A stretch of 64,000 nt of DNA from positions 62,001-126,000 of the forward strand of contig NZ_AKJF01000017.1 of the NCBI RefSeq assembly GCF_000282475.1, written 5' to 3'. Source of the DNA: Pseudomonas sp. GM78. Its GTDB lineage: Bacteria > Pseudomonadota > Gammaproteobacteria > Pseudomonadales > Pseudomonadaceae. A program made the position numbers and the translations under genes. The notes under the pieces were generated by a model. It had not been told where the DNA came from. It worked only from the letters and a program-made list of their open reading frames with translations, and did not search any database. This document shows, one piece after another, positions 8,018 to 57,820 of the stretch; within the stretch, counting starts at the first letter, position 1; each line of letters begins with the position of its first letter.

Positions 8018-8121
8018 GTTTGCAGATAATCAGCCCACAACGCAAGAGCAGCATGTCGGCTCGATGGCTTGCGCCAACCGTGGCGCAAGCCCATTTGCAA
8101 TCAGCTCAAGTGCCGCGCCAA

Positions 8122-47522: not shown

Positions 47523-50500
47523 TTACCGCGCGGTATTCGGCGCGGGCTCATCGCTGACTCGCAGCAGCCCCCAGATGCCGCCCAGATTGCCGAAGGCCGC
47601 ATAGTCCCGATACAGGTAGTCGCCAGGTACCGCGTTGGCGCCGCCGGCGCTGGGGAACATGAAGCTGAAATGCGCGGCCGGCAGTACGCTTTCCTGGGCG
47701 CCGATGTACATGGCCATGGGGTTGTAGCCAAAGCGCACCGAACCAATACCCGCGTCTTTCATTGGGTAGCCCCAGAGGTCCACCCTTTCAGCCTGGAACG
47801 GGTTAAACGCCCAGACATGCCCGTCGAGCTGGAAGGTCGCGCCCCGGCTACCGCCCGAAGGCATCAGCACATGGGTGCGGAACGGCTGCCCGGGCTTGAC
47901 CCGCAGTATCGGCGTTACCGGATCGCCGCCGACCAGGGCATTGCTGTAGGCCATGTGAGCGTTGGGCACAGCGCCCAAGCCATTGCCACCCGCCTGGCCG
48001 AACGGTGCGTTCGGTGCACGGGCGAAGCGGTACCACAGGGGCTCGCTCTTGTAGTTGATGGCCATGTCCGAGTTGTCTTTCGGGTCGTTGGGAATGCCCG
48101 GCCCTTCGGACGACATGTTCTCCACTGGCAAGCCGTTGGCCCAGCGCATGTTCAGGGACTTCTGCCAGACCATGACGAAGTCGCGATAACTGCTGACGCC
48201 CGGCGGCTGCACCGTGGCCGACGCTCTGGAAGCAGCATCCTCCTGCCAGGTGGCACCAGCCGGCGCCACCGACATGGCCGCCACCAGGCCTTTTTGCGGT
48301 TGTTTGATCGGGTCGGCCGACATCAGGTTCAGGCCACCAAACTCGATGGGGGTCGCCTCGATCGTGTCGACGTTGCGTCCCAATTGTGACGCGACCGGCT
48401 GACCGGCGCGCTCCAGGTGCCCGGCGTAGTACTGATAGGTCCGGCTTGGCCACGCACCGGTGTTGCTTGCCCTTGGCGCCACCGTCTGCACCGGATTGCT
48501 GCCGACGTTGAAGCCGTCCGACTTGCTGACGTCGTAGGTCAGCAACTGGGCGTGCAGGCCAATGTGGCTGGAGGGCCGCATCAGGTTGTTGTTGAAGGTG
48601 GTGGAGCCTTGCGCACCGGAACGGTCACGCTTGACCGTGCCTTGCATCACCGCGTAGTTCGGCAGGTCCGGCATCATCAGAGGCAGGCGGTTCTCCAGGG
48701 TGATGTTGATGCAATCGCCGGCGGCGGCGCGCAGTACCAGTGGCTCGACCGGCACCCCGGGCTTGAGCTTGCCACTGACCGGGTCCAGGTCGGCCTTGCG
48801 CACATACAGGATGGCGGTCGGATCGTGCAACGGGCCGGACTGCCCGCCAATGGTGAAGGTCTCGCCATCTTCAGGATCGAAGATCGTCACCAGCGGCACA
48901 GTCACCGGCCTTGGGTTGTAGACCAGGGTGCCACCGAGCGGGTTGAGCGGGCCGCCGACATGCTGGCCGGTACCTGCCGGGTCGCCAATGGTCAGGCCCA
49001 ACGGGTTGGCGAGGACATCGTTGGCCAGGGCCGCGACCACCTCGTAGTTACGCTGTACCGTCGGCCGGGTACCGATGCCATTGGGATTGGGGCTGATGCG
49101 CGGGCACACGCCATTGAAATTGACCGTGTTGCGCGCGGCCACCGGCCTGGGGTTGTTCGGAAGCGGGAACAGGTCACTGCGGCTCTGCGAATAGTTGCGC
49201 ATGATGCCCCACAGGCCACTCCAGTAGCCCTCCAGGGAAGCATCCATGGAATACAGGTAATCGCCGGTATCGCTGGCCGCACTGGACATCATCGCCACAG
49301 GTGCCATGAAGCCGAACTGCTCGGAAATCGCCACCATTTGCGATGCCTTCCAGCCGGTATTGGAGCTATTGCCGAAGCCGCTGCCCGAATGCAGCCATTT
49401 CACGCCGTGCACCGTGACGTTGTGCTCCTCTTCGTGGCCGCCGGCATTGACCCGCAGGCGCACGTTGTCGCCGGTGTAGGTTCGCAACGTCGGCGTGAAC
49501 GGATCGCCCGGCAAGTCCCCCCGGTTGATATGTTTGGGCAATAGCGTGACCCCGCCGGTAGGGCCGGTCGCCGTGGTGATCGCGCTGGGGGCCAGGTTGA
49601 GTGCAGGGATTGCCCGATCGGTACGGTTTTGCAGGGCATGGGCCAGGTCACCGGCCAGGCCATCGGCTTGCATGCCGCGCTTGCCGTCTGGCGCCATTTT
49701 GTTCGGGTCGTAGATGCGCAGTCCCAGGGGCTCGTGGCGGTAGTTGACGACGAAGATGCCAGGATCCGAAGCCGAGATCGCTTGCGGGCACGGCCGCGAC
49801 GGGCACGTAAGCAGTTGGCCACTTGCAACTTCCACGACAGACTCCAGCAGGTTGGCGGCCGTCTTGCGCGCAGGCGGGTTGATGGCGTAGCGGAAGCTGT
49901 CCGCCGTGGCCGGGAAGGCGTCCGCATCGGGAATACCATCGGGGCCCGCGCCGACGTAGACACCGGCCTCATAGGCATGCTGGAAGTCGCTGAACTCGAG
50001 GAAAAACTCACGAAAGCTATCGTTCTTGTTGTCGCCGTTGAGATCACCGGTCTCGATCACGGCTTGCCACGACGTCGGGCCGCCGTCCTGGCGGCCACCA
50101 CCGTTGTACAGGGTCTCGCCGGTTTCGGCGTGGTACCACCTGGAACCGGCAGGCTCGGCAAGCACGGTGGCGTACATGCCAACTTGCTGGTGGGTCGAAG
50201 GGCCAAGGTGGTCATGGGTAAAGATATTGCCCAGGCCGCGATCGATGTTGTGCACGTTCAGCACAGGGTCGGCGAACCAGCGTTGCAGCGTGGTGCGCGC
50301 ACCCAGCCAGTCAGCGCGGTTGAACCGTCCGAAATATGGGTGCTGTTTGGCCACGGGACAGTTCCCGGTGCCTTCACGTGGGTCGCCGTCCCGACAATTG
50401 TTGAACCGGCGAATGGCGTGGATACGCTCGACCACGGTGGAGGGTGAGAGCACACCATCCTCGTAGTTCCATCCATTGGCCGAGCCGTCGGCGGCAGTCA

Positions 50501-53351
50501 GGTCCCACTTGGGCAAGTGAATGTGCTGGCCGATGACGTCGGTTGGCGTACGCACCTGGTAATCGTCGAGCTCGTAGACTGACGGCACCAGATTAGTGTG
50601 CTGGTACATGGTGCAGTCGAAGGTGTTCATGCGCATCACCAACGGTTCCGGTGGACGCTGCTTGTTGATCACCGGCCACGCATCCTCCCACAGGGTGAGG
50701 ATGCGGGTTTGCGGGAAGTGATAGCCGATCTTGTTGAACACGGCGTCGAACTGGATATTGGCGCCTTTGTAGACGCGCGGGTGATCGGCACTGAACATCG
50801 AGGCGCCGCTGAACGTCTGGGCGTCGAGACGCTCACCACTGTTGAAATAGCCTGCTCCGGCGCTGCGGGTCAGGCGTTTTTGCCGGTCGTCCATACAGGG
50901 TTCGAAAAAAGGCGCGCCCGCCACCGGAGGGGCCCCGTTGGTCAGGAAGTCACGCGGCAGCAGTTGGCCATTGGGCAGCACGGCGAAGCTGGCATGTGAT
51001 GGCTTGGCATGGAAGGCCATGGCCGACTGTTCGACTTCGGTACCCTCCTCCGGGAAATACACCGGTTTGGCGCGCTCCAGGGCCTTGCTCATGTCCAGCA
51101 AACTGGTGGTCACCTGCGCGTCGCCGCCAGCCGCCCAGCCATCCAGGCCATGACGAGGCAGGCCGCCATCCCAACCACCGGCCTGAGCCGGATCCAGCGC
51201 CGCCCACAATGCCTTGCCGCTGTCCTTCAAGGCCGTGGCGGTTTGCGCATCGAGCATGTCCAGAGGTTGCGTCGGCGGCCGTTGACCGACGGTGCTTTCG
51301 ACGCCGCCGATCCAGAATGGGTAGCCTGGATTTTTCAGGCTGCCATCGGCGTTGCGGTTGGCTTCACTGCGATCGACCAGGGCCACCGAGCCGACGACTC
51401 TCGGTGCAGTCGGTGTTTCGCTGTCGTCACCCGGCTCCTGGTCTGAGGTCAGCGTTTCACTACTCAATTTCGCAATTACTGCCACCTTGCCCGGCATCGG
51501 CGGCAAAGCCTTGCCCGGCAAGGGCACAACCGCCGGAATAGGTGTGCCGGCGACGATCTCGCCATCGGGCAAGGCCCGGGCACCCGAGGCCGGCAAGCCA
51601 CTGCGCAGGGCAAACGGCTGCGCATGAAAGTCGTTGTTGCCCTCTTGGGTTACCGCCAGGCGCGTACCCTCCTCGAACACATCATGGATGCGCCACATGG
51701 CCCACATGCCTTGGGCGAAATGCGGGTAGAAATGGCAATGATAGATCGCATCGCCGACCACCCGATTGCGGTTGCCGGAGCCTCCATTGGCGATTTCGTA
51801 GGTGTAACCCGAGCCCGGGCCGACGCCTTGGGCATCCATGTAGTCGGAGTTGTCATCGTTGGGGTTGAACAACCACTGGTGGCCGTGCAAATGGAAAACG
51901 TGTTGCTCGTAACCCACGCTGATATTGCGAAACTTCACCGCATCGCCCAGGTAGCTATGGGCGACGTTGGAAGGCTCGGCCGGATACAGCGCCATGCTCG
52001 CCTTGATACCGACACTGTCGGCCGGCGCTACCTGGCCGGGCGCCAGCTGCTCGAGGCCGGCGTTGGCCGGCACGTCCACCTGCATCGCGATATCGCCGGT
52101 GGTGTGGGCGCTGAGGAAGAATTCTTCATAGGCGCAGGACAAGCAATCATGCATGGGGCCGACACCCACGCGGTTGGCGATGACCTCGGCGCCCATGCCT
52201 CCGGAACCGTAGTTGACCATGAAGGCGTCGCGCGTCGGATCGAGCATCTGACCGAACGCCAGATCACCCCAGAACCCTGGAAACGCCTGGATGACAGCGG
52301 ATTGGTCGTGGAACACCGCAGCGAAATCGCGGAACGGCTCCAGGCGATTGGGCAGGCTGGGGTTGCGCTTGCCTTGGCTTTCAAGTGGATAGGTGGTGGG
52401 TGGAAAACTGCCATCGGCATTCGGCCCCATGACCACTGCGTCTGCATTGCTGGCAATGATCTCGCTGCCGTCGACCATGCTCAGGATCGGCTTGCCTGCC
52501 TTGCCTTCCGCGATCCAGGGCTCAAGCATCGGGTAGCGAGCCTGGTAGTCGATGATCGGCTGGCCGGCCGGTGTCCGCCCGCGCGTCGCCAGGCGCATGT
52601 CCTCTTCGGTGACCGTGTTGTGATAGGCCTGCCCGCCTTTGGGCAGCACCACAACCTGGGCGAACAGGCCGTTGCCGACGTTGCCGGAAGAACCCTCGCT
52701 GCCGAAGGTGGCGCCGTAGCTGGTCGCCGCGAAAGTGCCTTCGCGTTCGGCGTAGAGGGTGTAACTACGGCTTTGCCCGGGTGCCAGCAAGGTGTTGTCG
52801 TTACGCCCGCTGTTGGCGGAAATATCGTTGATCGAGCCAAATGCCTGTAGACCGTTGACCTGGAAACCCACATGGCGGTCGGCGACTTGAGCGTCGACGT
52901 GCAACTCGCCGTTGGCGGCGTTCTCGTGGTCGATGCCCTGGCCATTGGGGTTGGCCTGGAAAGCCAACAGGTTTTGCAGGTTGACCGTCAGACAATCTCC
53001 GGCAGCAACCCGCAGTACCAATGGACGCGGCCGCTTGTCCGGGCGCAAGGTGACTTGACCTGGCATGGCGCTACCGCCCTGGGTGATCAATACCCCCTTG
53101 GTGTCAACCACATCCGCACGCAGGGCGAACATCATGCCGTTGGGGTTATGCGCACCGAGCCGGTTGAACATCAACGGCTGGTCCATGGCCACGACATTGG
53201 CCACCAAGGTGCGCTGGCACTGCACCGCCGCCTCGGCCAGCTCGCCACCGGCGAGCCATACGCCGGCGAGCAAGGCCAATCCTTGTGGCTTCCTCAACCA
53301 GCGCCGGATGCCATCAAAGTCGATTTGAGAGTGCAGTTGCGAGCAGATCAT
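47523..53351 (-). CDS. mnxG: Giant multicopper oxidase, MnxG-like manganese oxidase
   Basis: 1942 residues with an N-terminal signal sequence (residues about 1-43, ending AGGELAEAA) and several cupredoxin-like units. Copper motifs: H487-L-H-G-H491; H538-C-H540 with H544 and M549 (trinuclear plus type 1 site); HIH 943-945; H1046-D-H1048, H1054, M1059; H1310 and H1315. Length and motif scatter match MnxG, the Mn(II) oxidase of Pseudomonas putida GB-1; McoA-like function is the alternative. I chose ATG 53351 (GGAGG nine bases upstream) over one 50 codons earlier, which would precede the sigma-54 promoter at 53399. Exported and probably extracellular. Confidence 0.85.
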   Translation of the reverse strand: MICSQLHSQIDFDGIRRWLRKPQGLALLAGVWLAGGELAEAAVQCQRTLVANVVAMDQPLMFNRLGAHNPNGMMFALRADVVDTKGVLITQGGSAMPGQVTLRPDKRPRPLVLRVAAGDCLTVNLQNLLAFQANPNGQGIDHENAANGELHVDAQVADRHVGFQVNGLQAFGSINDISANSGRNDNTLLAPGQSRSYTLYAEREGTFAATSYGATFGSEGSSGNVGNGLFAQVVVLPKGGQAYHNTVTEEDMRLATRGRTPAGQPIIDYQARYPMLEPWIAEGKAGKPILSMVDGSEIIASNADAVVMGPNADGSFPPTTYPLESQGKRNPSLPNRLEPFRDFAAVFHDQSAVIQAFPGFWGDLAFGQMLDPTRDAFMVNYGSGGMGAEVIANRVGVGPMHDCLSCAYEEFFLSAHTTGDIAMQVDVPANAGLEQLAPGQVAPADSVGIKASMALYPAEPSNVAHSYLGDAVKFRNISVGYEQHVFHLHGHQWLFNPNDDNSDYMDAQGVGPGSGYTYEIANGGSGNRNRVVGDAIYHCHFYPHFAQGMWAMWRIHDVFEEGTRLAVTQEGNNDFHAQPFALRSGLPASGARALPDGEIVAGTPIPAVVPLPGKALPPMPGKVAVIAKLSSETLTSDQEPGDDSETPTAPRVVGSVALVDRSEANRNADGSLKNPGYPFWIGGVESTVGQRPPTQPLDMLDAQTATALKDSGKALWAALDPAQAGGWDGGLPRHGLDGWAAGGDAQVTTSLLDMSKALERAKPVYFPEEGTEVEQSAMAFHAKPSHASFAVLPNGQLLPRDFLTNGAPPVAGAPFFEPCMDDRQKRLTRSAGAGYFNSGERLDAQTFSGASMFSADHPRVYKGANIQFDAVFNKIGYHFPQTRILTLWEDAWPVINKQRPPEPLVMRMNTFDCTMYQHTNLVPSVYELDDYQVRTPTDVIGQHIHLPKWDLTAADGSANGWNYEDGVLSPSTVVERIHAIRRFNNCRDGDPREGTGNCPVAKQHPYFGRFNRADWLGARTTLQRWFADPVLNVHNIDRGLGNIFTHDHLGPSTHQQVGMYATVLAEPAGSRWYHAETGETLYNGGGRQDGGPTSWQAVIETGDLNGDNKNDSFREFFLEFSDFQHAYEAGVYVGAGPDGIPDADAFPATADSFRYAINPPARKTAANLLESVVEVASGQLLTCPSRPCPQAISASDPGIFVVNYRHEPLGLRIYDPNKMAPDGKRGMQADGLAGDLAHALQNRTDRAIPALNLAPSAITTATGPTGGVTLLPKHINRGDLPGDPFTPTLRTYTGDNVRLRVNAGGHEEEHNVTVHGVKWLHSGSGFGNSSNTGWKASQMVAISEQFGFMAPVAMMSSAASDTGDYLYSMDASLEGYWSGLWGIMRNYSQSRSDLFPLPNNPRPVAARNTVNFNGVCPRISPNPNGIGTRPTVQRNYEVVAALANDVLANPLGLTIGDPAGTGQHVGGPLNPLGGTLVYNPRPVTVPLVTIFDPEDGETFTIGGQSGPLHDPTAILYVRKADLDPVSGKLKPGVPVEPLVLRAAAGDCINITLENRLPLMMPDLPNYAVMQGTVKRDRSGAQGSTTFNNNLMRPSSHIGLHAQLLTYDVSKSDGFNVGSNPVQTVAPRASNTGAWPSRTYQYYAGHLERAGQPVASQLGRNVDTIEATPIEFGGLNLMSADPIKQPQKGLVAAMSVAPAGATWQEDAASRASATVQPPGVSSYRDFVMVWQKSLNMRWANGLPVENMSSEGPGIPNDPKDNSDMAINYKSEPLWYRFARAPNAPFGQAGGNGLGAVPNAHMAYSNALVGGDPVTPILRVKPGQPFRTHVLMPSGGSRGATFQLDGHVWAFNPFQAERVDLWGYPMKDAGIGSVRFGYNPMAMYIGAQESVLPAAHFSFMFPSAGGANAVPGDYLYRDYAAFGNLGGIWGLLRVSDEPAPNTAR

Positions 53352-53398: not shown

Positions 53399-53413
53399 GC
53401 AAATATCGCGCCA
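53399..53413 (-). promoter_or_regulatory. Sigma-54 promoter of mnxG
   Basis: Minus strand TGGCGCGATATTTGC: GG and GC separated by exactly ten bases, one mismatch to the TGGCAC-N5-TTGC consensus. Predicted start near 53388 gives a leader of about 37 bases that includes GGAGG. MnxG expression in P. putida GB-1 depends on the sigma-54-type response regulator MnxR, which fits. Confidence 0.75.
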
Positions 53414-53476
53414 AAAACAAATCAAGTTTGAATTCAACTAGTTGGAAAGTTACAACCCACAACCGGGGAAATATTT

Positions 53477-53705
53477 TCCCCCACTTAGCTCCCCCACCCA
53501 CCCCGAACTTATTTCAAATTATGTATGAAAAAACCGCATATCTCGCGCGCGCGAATAACTGCCACGGATACTTACTCAACAACAAAAATTCGGGATTTTA
53601 TTGCCTGCAGCAAATAGCAGTATCAATTATGAAACAGCATACAAGCTGTAACAGCAGAACTTCCACGTCGAACAAAGTCCCCCACCAGTGGGTGCATTCC
53701 CCCAC
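53477..53705. repeat. Four TCCCCCAC repeats, candidate enhancer sites
   Basis: Exact copies at 53477-53484, 53490-53497, 53678-53685 and 53698-53705, in two pairs with starts 13 and 20 bases apart. They lie 64-306 bases upstream of the mnxG promoter and more than 300 upstream of the other, distances suited to a sigma-54 activator. No activator gene is in the window. Confidence 0.5.
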
Positions 53706-54010
53706 CAGCCTAAGTTTCGACAAGGGTTAACTTCCCTTGAAACTGAACCCAGCTTAATCCACGAGCGCTTGACATACTTTGACACACTTTCACCACAGAC
53801 AACTACCGAGCCCGCTTTTTCGCTCAGTAAAAGTGGAGAATCCAGGTACAAAGTTGCAGCATGAAATGCTATCGATCCTCAATATTTACTGAGTAACGTG
53901 CGCCGCTTTAATACGGCAGCACTCACTACCAAAGCGGACACCAAACCAACCCACTTCGACTTGAGTATTTCGCTGAAGATATTGCTCATACGCGTTTTTG
54001 ATAATTAAAC

Positions 54011-54026
54011 AGGCACGATCATTGCT
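54011..54026 (+). promoter_or_regulatory. Sigma-54 promoter of the secreted-protein operon
   Basis: AGGCACGATCATTGCT: GG (54012-54013), ten bases, GC (54024-54025), matching GGCACG-N4-TTGCT completely except the first T. Predicted start near 54037, 56 bases before the ATG at 54093. Confidence 0.8.
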
Positions 54027-54092: not shown

Positions 54093-55484
54093 ATGCACAA
54101 CAGATTGGCCCTACTGACAAGTTCGATCCTGCTTGCGTCACTCTGTGGCGGCACGGCGCAGGCAGCACTCTACGCTGTAGACCCGGGTGTCCCTGGAGAG
54201 CGCCCCTACCCCCTCGATAGCGGGAACAAGACCGGGTACGCCGCCTGGTATCAGGACACCCATGGCCGGATCCTGGACCTGTGCCTGAGCAAGGCGGTCA
54301 GCTCTCGCACAGCACCCACACCCGGGGCGCCTGCGTACATGTGCGTCCTCAACCCGGCACCCGGAGAGTTTGATGACACCCAACCCGTCGTCTTTCCGAC
54401 CAACTATCCCGATGAAACCTTCTGGTACGCCGCGGACGGCGCCATAACCGACGCTGCCAGTGGCATCGACCTGACCTACGTTGCGGCCATCGAAGCGGCG
54501 TTCAACGGCGAGATCGCGGACGGTCACCAACTGAGCTTCGCCCGTATCCGCATTCGCGTGGATGTTCCCGTAGCCGGCGTGTACACGGTTACCCACCCCT
54601 ATGGCGTCGAAGTGTTCAACGTAACGCCCGAAGAGTTCGCCGACACCGGCGGCACCCGGGCAATCAACATGACCCGCGATATCGGCATCGGTCCATCCGG
54701 GGACTATACCGGCGCGCTGAAGGGTGACATCGGCCCCTTCCTGCGCAGTCTCAATGGTCCCTACACCGAGACCAACCCGGAAACCGGCCAGCAGGAGAAA
54801 TTCATCGGCGACCCGAATCTGGAGGAGCAAGTGACTGGCAGCCCCTTCAATACCAACTACCTGCGTGTCCAGGGTCCCAACGGCATCGATACTCGCAGCG
54901 ACACATTCTCCGTTTCCGGCAAGCTCAGCGCCGTGGATCTGCCTGCCCCAGCCTTGGTCAAGCGTGCCAGCTACTCGCGCGGCAACTCCTCCGGTGGTGT
55001 GGTCGCGCATCAGGATGTCTTCACCATGGCTCCTCCGCCTCCCGGTACGGTCAACTTCCTGGACAGCACAGGCGCTACCGTGACCATGACGGAAGCCAAT
55101 TCGACCGGCAGCTGGTATGGCCAGTCGACAGTCAATCCGTCGGTACCGGCGACTTTGCAAGTGACCGCCGACAACCACCTGGCGGTCCCTACCCTCCTGG
55201 CGCCAACCACCGTCCCCGTGCAACTGACCGATCTGGTCACCATCAGCCGCGCCGAATACAGCCGCAGTACCGGTCGACTGACCATCGAGGCCTCGACCAG
55301 CGACCGCATCACGCCACCAAACCTGACCGCCTACGCCGGCAAGAGTGGTGCGCTGATCGGTGAACTTTCCGGCGGCGCCGACAAGTCGCTGTCGCCTAAC
55401 GCCGGCACAGTCCCTCCGGCGACCATTCGGGTGACTTCGGCGAACGGCGGCAGCGATACAGAAGAAGTGGTCATCGTCCAGTGA
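54093..55484 (+). CDS. Secreted protein of unrecognised family, paralogue of the next gene
   Basis: 463 residues with a clear signal peptide (LLTSSILLASLCGGTAQA). The N-terminal 230 residues contain LCLSKAVSSR..PGAPAYMC (paired Cys), FARIRIRVDVPVAGVYTVTHPYG and TETNPETGQQEKFIGDPN, all repeated in the next protein. The C-terminal part is Thr/Ser/Pro-rich beta sequence resembling Ig-like domains. I do not recognise a named family or a catalytic motif. AGAGGA seven bases before the ATG. Co-regulated with mnxG by matching sigma-54 promoters, so probably an extracellular or periplasmic partner of the oxidase. Confidence 0.8.
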   Translation: MHNRLALLTSSILLASLCGGTAQAALYAVDPGVPGERPYPLDSGNKTGYAAWYQDTHGRILDLCLSKAVSSRTAPTPGAPAYMCVLNPAPGEFDDTQPVVFPTNYPDETFWYAADGAITDAASGIDLTYVAAIEAAFNGEIADGHQLSFARIRIRVDVPVAGVYTVTHPYGVEVFNVTPEEFADTGGTRAINMTRDIGIGPSGDYTGALKGDIGPFLRSLNGPYTETNPETGQQEKFIGDPNLEEQVTGSPFNTNYLRVQGPNGIDTRSDTFSVSGKLSAVDLPAPALVKRASYSRGNSSGGVVAHQDVFTMAPPPPGTVNFLDSTGATVTMTEANSTGSWYGQSTVNPSVPATLQVTADNHLAVPTLLAPTTVPVQLTDLVTISRAEYSRSTGRLTIEASTSDRITPPNLTAYAGKSGALIGELSGGADKSLSPNAGTVPPATIRVTSANGGSDTEEVVIVQ

Positions 55485-55519: not shown

Positions 55520-57820
55520 ATGAACAAGTGGCCACGTTTCATATTCAACACACTGAGCCTGTCCATCGCCATGGCAGGCGGTGCCAGCGCCGCCCTGCAG
55601 AGTTTCGATCCGGGACCCTACACCCTCGCCACCGGCCGGTTCCCGATGTGGTATCAGGACTTCAACAGCGTGAAGCTGGAGCTCTGCCTGTCCAAGACAG
55701 TCAGCTCCCGCGCACCGGGCACCCCTGACGCCCCCGGCTACATGTGTACCATTCCCGCCGAAGGCGGCTTCAATCCCGCCGAGCCCATCATCTTTCCCAA
55801 TAACTGGCCAGGCGAAAGCTTCTGGTTCACCGCTGACGCCAGCGTCGGCGACAGAACCTACGGCATCGAGCAGTACGTCGCCGCACTGGAAGCGGTGGCC
55901 GGCGAAGGCGAGATCGTCGATGGGGAACAGCACAACTTCGCCCGCATCCGTATCCGCGCCGCCGTTCCCACCGCGGGCATGTACACCGTGCGCCATCCGT
56001 ACGGGACCAAGGTGTACGTCGTCTCCACGACCGGGCGACGGGCGATCAACGACACCAGTGATATCGGCATCGCCACGCTCAATTACTCGGGCGCCTTGCA
56101 AGGAGCACTCGGGCCGTTCCTGTACAGCGCGACCGCCCCCAACAGCCTGACCAATGAAGCCGGTACGGAGATCGCCCGCTACTTCACCGAAACCAACCCG
56201 GAAACCGGCCTGCAGGAAAAATTCGTCGGCGACCCGAACATCCCTGACCAGGTGCGCGGTAGCCCGATCCTTGATGAACAGGGCAACCCGCAGAACTATG
56301 TGGAGATCTCAGGTCCTGCGGGCACACTGCGCACCAATCTGCTCTCGATCTCAGGCAAGATCTACGACGACCGTACCCAGACGCCGGTGGAGGTGGAGCG
56401 CGTCACCTACCAGCGTGACAGCAACGGCTCGCAGGTCGAAATATTTGCCGACTCGTTCCGTACCAACAACAGTACCCAGGCAGTGGCGCCGGCTGCATCG
56501 ACAGTGTGTTACCGCACCACTCTCATCCTCACCGGTACGCCACCGGGACCGTGCCTGCCTGGCGCGAATTTGTTGACGGATAACAACGGCTATTTCTACA
56601 CCCACTTTACGACACCCGCTGCCCCGCCATCAGTGGTGGTGCTGACAGCAAGCGAATTGGGTGGCGCGAACAAACCCACCTCGGTATCACGTACGCCAGT
56701 CGATGTGGTGAAAGTCAGTACGGCTCGATACGACCCGGCCAATCACCGCCTGACCATCACCGCGAGTTCCAGCGACAAGGTCCTCAATCCCGGCCTCGTC
56801 GCCCAGGGATACGGTCCTCTGCCAGTAGATGGAACGCTGGTGGTCAATGATCTGACCCAGCCACCGGAAAGCGTCACCGTGAAATCGGCTGCTGGCGGAG
56901 CGGACAGTGAGCCTGTGACCGTTACCGGCATCGTCGAAGTCCCTGCCGACAACGAAAAACCCCTGGCCGTGGCGGATAACATCAGCACCAGTTCGGGCGT
57001 ACCGATCACCATCAACGTGCTGGCCAATGACAGCGATCCCGACAACAACACTCCGCTGACCATCGGCAGCTTCGTACCGCCGGCGGCAGGCCAGGGTACG
57101 GTGACGCTCAATGGCACCACCAGCCTGACCTACACGCCACCGGCGACCAATGTCCCGCTGCAGGCGACCTTCAGCTACATCGCCCTCGACAACAAAGGCC
57201 TCGCATCGGAGCCAGCAACGGTCACGGTCAACGTGAGCCCGAACCAGGCACCTGTCGCCAATAACGACACCGCAGCCACCCAAGGTGGAACGCTGACGCT
57301 CAACGTATTGCTCAACGACGCCGACCCCGAAGGCAACGCCCCCTTGAGCGTCATCATCCTCACCCAGCCGGCGGCTGGCCAGGGCAGTGTCAGTACCGAC
57401 GGCACGGTGGTGACCTACACCGCACCGCAGAACATCACGAGTGCCTTTTCCACCACCTTCACCTATCAGGTCCGGGATTCGCTCGGAGCACTTTCGGCAC
57501 CGGCCACCGTCACCGTGCAAGTCACACCCTTGGTAACGCAGGAGAACTTGGTGCTGACCTCCGCCGTGGCACGGGCGCGCGCCAACGACCGCTTCACCTG
57601 GGACCTGTCTGGGACAACCTCGGCCGTGGTCGGAAACACCATCACCGTTCAGGTCTCCACTGCCAGTGGCCTGGTTACGTTGGGCAGCACTACAGTGCCG
57701 GTCACCGGCCGCTGGCGGCTGTCGGCGACCACCACGACCGTAGTGCCCAGCGCCAACCCAACGGTCACGATCCGATCATCGCTTGGAACCGTGCGCACGG
57801 CACCGTTGGTGGTCCAGTAG
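55520..57820 (+). CDS. Secreted protein with Ig/cadherin-like repeats, paralogue of the preceding gene
   Basis: 766 residues, signal peptide ending GGASAA. Residues about 25-300 repeat the preceding protein's blocks (LCLSKTVSSR..PDAPGYMC, FARIRIRAAVPTAGMYTVRHPYG, TETNPETGLQEKFVGDPN). Two tandem Big_9/cadherin-like domains follow (about 483-572 and 573-672), each with NVLxNDxDPxxNxPL and PAAGQGxV, a calcium-binding style. A last beta domain (673-766) ends VRTAPLVVQ. ATG 55520 is chosen with AGGAGG just upstream. Adhesion or matrix association is inferred. No sortase, autotransporter or type I export signal is evident. Confidence 0.82.
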   Translation: MNKWPRFIFNTLSLSIAMAGGASAALQSFDPGPYTLATGRFPMWYQDFNSVKLELCLSKTVSSRAPGTPDAPGYMCTIPAEGGFNPAEPIIFPNNWPGESFWFTADASVGDRTYGIEQYVAALEAVAGEGEIVDGEQHNFARIRIRAAVPTAGMYTVRHPYGTKVYVVSTTGRRAINDTSDIGIATLNYSGALQGALGPFLYSATAPNSLTNEAGTEIARYFTETNPETGLQEKFVGDPNIPDQVRGSPILDEQGNPQNYVEISGPAGTLRTNLLSISGKIYDDRTQTPVEVERVTYQRDSNGSQVEIFADSFRTNNSTQAVAPAASTVCYRTTLILTGTPPGPCLPGANLLTDNNGYFYTHFTTPAAPPSVVVLTASELGGANKPTSVSRTPVDVVKVSTARYDPANHRLTITASSSDKVLNPGLVAQGYGPLPVDGTLVVNDLTQPPESVTVKSAAGGADSEPVTVTGIVEVPADNEKPLAVADNISTSSGVPITINVLANDSDPDNNTPLTIGSFVPPAAGQGTVTLNGTTSLTYTPPATNVPLQATFSYIALDNKGLASEPATVTVNVSPNQAPVANNDTAATQGGTLTLNVLLNDADPEGNAPLSVIILTQPAAGQGSVSTDGTVVTYTAPQNITSAFSTTFTYQVRDSLGALSAPATVTVQVTPLVTQENLVLTSAVARARANDRFTWDLSGTTSAVVGNTITVQVSTASGLVTLGSTTVPVTGRWRLSATTTTVVPSANPTVTIRSSLGTVRTAPLVVQ

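Follow-up and report, generated by a model that had tools for sequence, protein, structure and literature searches.

A putative two-way sigma-54 control region between a second MnxG-type multicopper oxidase gene and a pair of genes for probably exported proteins in Pseudomonas sp. GM78

The window analysed here, that is the whole stretch of DNA under study, comprises 64,000 nt of Pseudomonas sp. GM78 (contig NZ_AKJF01000017.1, positions 62,001-126,000, forward strand). It contains a multicopper oxidase gene and, facing away from it across a spacer, two consecutive genes, which we name mnxG2, SP1 and SP2 in this report. The spacer is bounded by the start codons of mnxG2 (ATG at 53351, minus strand) and SP1 (ATG at 54093, plus strand). 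The features are as follows.

47523..53351, minus strand: mnxG2, gene for a second MnxG-type multicopper oxidase of 1942 aa
53352..54092, no strand: divergent regulatory spacer of 741 bases, more AT-rich than its flanks
53399..53413, minus strand: predicted sigma-54 -24/-12 element of mnxG2, TGGCGCGATATTTGC, with 15 columns invariant in 6/6 spacers
53452..53471, no strand: predicted MnxR operator near mnxG2, reading CCCC-N6-GGGT on the minus strand, 8.6 bits, partly conserved
53677..53696, no strand: predicted MnxR operator in the middle of the spacer, GTCCCCCACCAGTGGGTGCA, 10.2 bits, with a core mostly conserved in six spacers
54011..54026, plus strand: predicted sigma-54 -24/-12 element of SP1-SP2, AGGCACGATCATTGCT, distinguished by consensus rank and conservation
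54093..55484, plus strand: SP1, 463 aa, with predicted tandem Ig-like domains
55520..57820, plus strand: SP2, 766 aa, an SP1 paralogue with C-terminal repeats

The initial annotation had placed a GG-N10-GC element near each end of the 741-base spacer and had read the two as sigma-54 promoters pointing in opposite directions. Both positions, 53399-53413 on the minus and 54011-54026 on the plus strand, were borne out. GG-N10-GC alone was dropped as promoter evidence, since it occurs 1190 times in the window (569 plus, 621 minus), and this abundance is what speaks for taking the elements as ordinary GC-rich sequence that arose by chance. Such a reading is opposed by site rank, shuffles and conservation across many species, and we consider it extremely improbable. 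When scored against the sigma-54 consensus TGGCACG-N4-TTGCW, the plus element matches at 11 of 12 positions and stands at the top of the 1190 window sites, and the minus element, with 10 of 12, takes second place level with six others. Two equally good opposed sites appeared in one of 2000 dinucleotide shuffles of the spacer, and equally good opposed sites near both gene ends in none of 2000. Six orthologous spacers were aligned, that of the window and those of five relatives including a genome of the same species, and GCAAATATCGCGCCA and GGCACGA-C-TTGCTGA are identical in all six. A -24/-12 element at a sensible and conserved distance, as expected of a sigma-54-dependent promoter, was thus found on both sides, and the proposed leaders of about 37 and 56 bases agree with an assumed start of transcription about 12 bases past the -12 GC. 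Consensus rank, shuffles and the 6/6 conservation together argue for predicted sigma-54 promoters in both directions.

Comparable sites precede related genes at other loci. A strict GG-N10-GC was found before SP1 in 28/28 rows (27 distinct loci; at -68 to -95), before mnxG2 in 14/14 rows (8 loci; at -60 to -65), before canonical mnxG in 31/31 rows (30 loci) and before mcoA in 5/5; a site score of at least 9 was reached before SP2 in 0/26 and before mnxS1 in 1/11 cases. The SP1 rows exclude L039-L046 and keep L047 and L048 (L047 repeats L052), and rows were skipped where the match started past residue 25, where another query matched better or where fewer than 150 bases lay upstream. A genome scan, in which 212 relatives were found, yielded 80 named loci that were kept; one of these (L131) is too short for the site test and three more are too short for the operator test described below. 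All 79 testable SP1 promoters among them score at least 9, 67 with a strict GG-N10-GC, and the remaining 12 depart from it at the -12 C (11 promoters) or at the GG (L124). Among the controls, 26/198 mechanical and 11/136 intergenic stretches reach a score of at least 9, and 3/198 and 1/136 at least 10. Since controls also reach a score of 9, a single site is weak evidence and it is the constancy that counts. The mechanical controls (198 or 201, depending on the count) are stretches before mechanically called ORFs of at least 150 aa, some of which are not true promoters, and the 136 intergenic controls come from a repeat of the combined site and operator test on intergenic stretches.

The mnxG2 product matches NCBIfam NF041487 (the MnxG equivalog) over profile positions 1-1894 with 3777 bits at a cut-off of 3100, and so belongs to this family by curated cut-off over the whole profile. 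It carries HLHGH, HCHFYPHFAQGM, HIH and HDH, which we take to be the copper-ligand motifs of multicopper oxidases, and 48 His/Cys positions are retained in at least 95% of 32 MnxG rows. Judged by this family match, MnxG2 is MnxG, a predicted manganese-oxidising multicopper oxidase, in a second and divergent copy. The canonical mnxG lies on another contig of the same genome (L038), scores higher against NF041487, and has its own sigma-54 site upstream and two SCO1-like genes downstream. Downstream, mnxG2 faces a convergent gene for a Rieske ferredoxin, and a search for SCO1 in the window gave no match. In a tree of 32 MnxG rows built with a quick method (32 of 33 loci were used, L116 being without a usable frame) the eight MnxG2 proteins form one clade with an SH-aLRT of 100, and L203 from Pseudomonas sp. 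BN411, flagged as a long row, is its sister with a support of 99. MnxG2 is about 75% identical to the canonical MnxG proteins of two mnxG2 genomes. The earlier description of a Mn-oxidase-like enzyme thus stood as regards the family, but the window copy is a second paralogue and the canonical mnxG is found elsewhere. Three tandem mnxG matches, about 72% identical to the window copy, were observed in each of Pseudomonas schmalbachii (L125, G671:C28:69573-87872) and P. jinjuensis (L126, G672:C22:376950-394954), one of those in P. schmalbachii having an in-frame stop.

On the other side of the spacer, SP2 begins 35 bases past SP1 with AGGAGG preceding its ATG. The N-termini of SP1 and SP2 are signal-peptide-like as judged by eye, and both proteins are probably exported. 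They are about 43-51% identical across a common region, for which Pfam, NCBIfam and the sequences of solved structures gave no significant match. SP1 as a whole has no Pfam or NCBIfam family, and its best hit in a profile search of PDB sequences (E 0.12) is not significant. Two C-terminal stretches of SP2 match Big_9/cadherin-like repeats (E 5.8e-27); no Big_9 was found in SP1 by sequence. An AlphaFold2 model of SP1 from a 72-row alignment reached a pLDDT of 87.7 and a pTM of 0.81 and is almost all beta past the signal stretch; a first model (pLDDT 58) was set aside together with its fold search. When the SP1 model was compared with the PDB by Foldseek, the best rows were all generic chains of tandem Ig-like or fibronectin type, the adhesin SiiE and a giant ice-binding adhesin included, at query-normalised TM values of 0.25 or less. 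No anti-phage defence families were found at E 0.01. No enzyme family was matched, and the simplest reading gives SP1 and SP2 a structural role. The step from there to a surface or matrix scaffold, taken alone, we would rate as not quite an even call.

A further pair is present in the GM78 genome, in the order SP2-SP1 | mnxS1-mcoA-SCO1-mnxS2-mnxR and divergent from mnxS1 (L049; L050 is from the same species). We assigned the gene names from their order, the domains and the literature, and the domain searches fit them: both loci encode two histidine kinases, a multicopper oxidase and an SCO1/SenC protein, and their MnxR has receiver, sigma-54 and Fis-type domains, as expected where an MnxR regulon is present. 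The own mcoA (L049:5057-7863) matches as two overlapping pieces in different frames, by draft error or as a broken gene, and in the conspecific L050 it is one frame of 936 aa. Across the 80 named loci (79 titled Pseudomonas and one a MAG titled Paucimonas) the pair directly adjoins mnxS1 in 58, mnxG2 in 4 and neither in 18, several of which sit on short contigs. The usual site of the pair is therefore beside mnxS1, not mnxG. At the mnxG2 loci, six of eight have the pair adjoining and divergent; L031 and L032 are without it. The converse, a window-type SP pair with no adjoining mnxG2, was seen at L066 (G002:C25).

The distribution of the pair was assessed in one draw of 398 Pseudomonas genomes, GM78 included. 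SP1 relatives were found in 131 of these, MnxG matches in 125 (121 over the NF041487 cut-off) and MnxR in 132 (E 1e-170 or better, at least 67% identity). Pair and MnxG occur together in 124 genomes, the pair only in 7, MnxG only in 1 and neither in 266, with a phi of 0.955; for pair and MnxR the respective numbers are 130, 1, 2 and 265, with a phi of 0.983, both statistics ignoring shared ancestry. In the sole genome with MnxG only (G331) the MnxG match is a 73-position fragment; the pair is without MnxR in G316 (78% complete), and MnxR is without the pair in G223 (73% complete) and G331. Some pair matches are partial or weak, such as that of G049 (best E 1e-57). In 14 of 32 same-contig cases, a hand-picked subset of all, mnxG and the pair are at least 100 kb apart, so that linkage accounts for the co-occurrence only in part. 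Among 274 genomes drawn across the class, GM78 itself is the only one in which the pair was found; distant or partial MnxG relatives, none over the cut-off, were found in five of the other 273. It had been stated in advance that secreted genes found mostly without any multicopper oxidase would speak against a link to Mn oxidation. The genomes point the other way, with MnxG present in 124/131 and MnxR in 130/131 pair genomes.

The same counts bear on a different reading, in which the pair belongs to MnxS/MnxR and not to the oxidase: it would be an adhesin responding to Mn or biofilm, or a periplasmic input for the kinase MnxS1, and would merely be co-expressed with MnxG. The pair indeed follows MnxR (130/131, phi 0.98) more closely than MnxG (124/131, phi 0.95). 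All seven genomes having the pair without an MnxG match keep MnxR, with the pair adjoining mnxS1 in six. At L054 (20 kb) only SP2-SP1 | mnxS1-mnxR are present among the genes sought, and the MnxG relatives outside the genus (5/273 class genomes) are not accompanied by the pair (0/273). On the other hand, 124 of the 125 genomes with an MnxG match have a pair match, the exception being the G331 fragment and the G049 match being weak, and a second pair lies divergent from mnxG2 in most mnxG2 loci, as described above. We regard this reading as unlikely. The proposed single extracellular machine stays conjectural, given the 7/131 pair genomes with no MnxG match and the 2/8 mnxG2 loci with no pair.

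Four genomes (G021, G232, G246 and G277; L101, L102 and L056-L059) have an mnx cluster without an McoA match and no MnxG match, and retain SCO1, mnxS1/S2/R and the pair. In G277 and G021 an mnxG-type promoter now precedes an SCO1 gene.

Beyond the earlier sigma-54 observation, an operator-like inverted repeat is a second element of these promoters. Exact CCCC-N6-GGGG is carried by 86% of the 29 canonical mnxG promoters and by 69% of the 26 SP1 promoters, usually around -181; its rate in 201 controls rounds to 0.00. It occurs in 0/8 mnxG2 promoters and is also missing from the window SP1 promoter, the window spacer holding a one-mismatch form. With a weight matrix trained on canonical mnxG promoters only and a threshold of 8.6 bits, the predicted operators at 53677-53696 and 53452-53471 rank second and fourth in the 64 kb; another window site, at 8069, scores 10.3. 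Spacer shuffles matched the score of the mid-spacer operator with one site in 30/2000 and with two sites in 1/2000 cases. A site score of at least 9 together with an operator of at least 8.6 bits was found for mnxG2 in 8/8, SP1 in 21/26, canonical mnxG in 27/29 (largely the training set) and the named SP1 loci in 62/76 promoters (14/76 fail the operator threshold), as opposed to 0/198 mechanical and 0/136 intergenic controls. Because they have spacers in common, the mnxG2 and window-type SP1 rows are not independent; L016, L023 and L039-L048, being duplicates or short copies, are omitted from the operator and combined counts. The same combination was found before SP2 in 0/26, mnxS1 in 1/11 and mcoA in 0/5 cases. 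All five mcoA operators score below 8.6 bits, a shortfall that may reflect the training set, since mcoA carries TTTCCCC-N6-GGGT.

The spacing of these elements is where the window is least typical. By hand reckoning the operator lies 90-100 bases from the -24 site in canonical promoters; in the window the mnxG2 -24 site is about 42 and 267 bases from the predicted operators and the SP1 -24 site about 318 bases. A distance of about 42 bases is short for an enhancer and counts against our best explanation. Pseudomonas genomes encode many sigma-54 activators, and the two promoters might be real and yet respond to different activators, in which case the spacer would not belong to one regulon; the unusual operator distances and the missing exact operator fit such a view. 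It is opposed by the operator-like repeat that the spacer has in common with the canonical mnxG and SP1 promoters and that is conserved in the orthologous spacers, and by the complete absence of both elements together from the 198 and 136 controls. Different activators appear quite improbable to us. The initial suggestion of one regulon gains from the presence of MnxR in 130/131 pair genomes and from the predicted operator shared between the promoters.

A scan of 40 genomes for a composite pattern of operator and sigma-54 site, with the reversed pattern as control, gave 189 matches versus 36 reversed in 36 MnxR genomes (167 versus 35 once G005, a genome with a repeated element, is set aside). 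In four genomes without MnxR the numbers were 5 versus 7. The 7.29-Mb genome of GM78 itself has five distinct places and none for the reversed control, three of them being the mcoA, canonical SP1 and canonical mnxG promoters. The two window promoters were not found by the composite pattern because their operators are differently spaced. In other MnxR genomes composite matches precede genes for a GGDEF/EAL protein, a MauG-like di-haem peroxidase and a 590-aa protein (L107:2118-4127, L108:4079-6196, L109 and L105:2418-4190), which are candidates for further regulon members. According to excerpts of PMC9765421, Mn(II) increases a GGDEF/EAL protein in a different strain.

Our preferred reading makes the spacer a divergent, sigma-54-dependent control region within the MnxR regulon, serving a second MnxG gene as well as the second copy of the secreted pair. 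In full, we consider it probable that it is a two-way sigma-54 control region of an MnxS1/MnxS2-MnxR regulon, with SP1 and SP2 most likely acting as a scaffold. The kinases MnxS1 and MnxS2 would sense an inducing state (Mn(II), stationary phase), and MnxR would bind inverted repeats of the CCCC-N6-GGGG type, the predicted operators, and drive sigma-54 RNA polymerase at both outward promoters. MnxG2 and the SP1-SP2 pair would in this way be made together. Canonical mnxG and the canonical SP pair next to mnxS1 would be under the same control, as would, probably, mcoA. Since the seven genomes lacking an MnxG match keep the pair together with MnxR, we tie the pair to the regulon and not to MnxG as such. 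Once exported, SP1 and SP2, as chains of Ig-like and cadherin-like domains, would most likely form a surface or matrix scaffold that supports the working oxidase or holds the oxide.

Several elements of this scheme agree with published work. According to excerpts of PMC11409713, Pseudomonas MS-1 loses Mn oxidation through rpoN::Tn5 and regains it with GB-1 rpoN, and excerpts of PMC11930936 give predicted sigma-54 and IHF sites for PmnxG and PmcoA of GB-1, which require Mn and stationary phase. Mn(II) induction is reported in excerpts among PMC11409713, PMC11930936, PMC9765421, PMC8218464 and PMC5854784. Neither the pair nor the operator is mentioned in the excerpts of the literature searched, which Geszvain and co-workers (AEM 2010, 2013) lie outside, and Table 4 of PMC11409713 does not list the secreted pair. 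The abstracts of PMC11930936 and PMC11409713 call both the function and the regulation of Mn oxidation by bacteria unknown or unclear.

Since MnxR genomes almost always carry the pair, we consider it a strong candidate for a missing part of bacterial Mn-oxide making. As a more tentative proposal, which we rate as less likely than not, SP1 and SP2 might constitute a new family of exported tandem-Ig scaffolds dedicated to bacterial Mn biomineralisation that in the extracellular space organise the multicopper oxidases and the oxide as it grows, and might be as constant in the Pseudomonas Mn system as MnxR. Our analysis brings to light two conserved, probably exported proteins as companions of MnxR in 130/132 MnxR genomes. 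The predicted operator offers a concrete means of listing and testing the regulon, and there are strains in nature that have both regulator and pair without an MnxG match.

The best described counterpart is the Mn(II) oxidation system of P. putida GB-1 (mnxG, mcoA, mnxS1/S2/R). As in GB-1, the GM78 oxidase belongs to the same family and is preceded by a predicted sigma-54 promoter, and relatives of the same kinases and sigma-54 regulator are encoded in the genome. Unlike in the GB-1 system, the mnxG paralogue of the locus described here is a second one lying outside the mnxG operon, a secreted pair diverges from it, and an explicit operator model is put forward. MnxG2 resembles MnxG (NF041487) by its full-length match over the cut-off and its copper motifs, and differs by its separate clade and by the lack of an SCO1 match in the window. 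SP1 and SP2 are reminiscent of Ig-like/cadherin-like adhesins (SiiE, the large ice-binding adhesin and Big_9 proteins), as the tandem beta-sandwich also appears in the SP1 model and SP2 has two Big_9 repeats; unlike these adhesins, SP1 and SP2 are small (463 and 766 aa) and share a region of their own without a family match.
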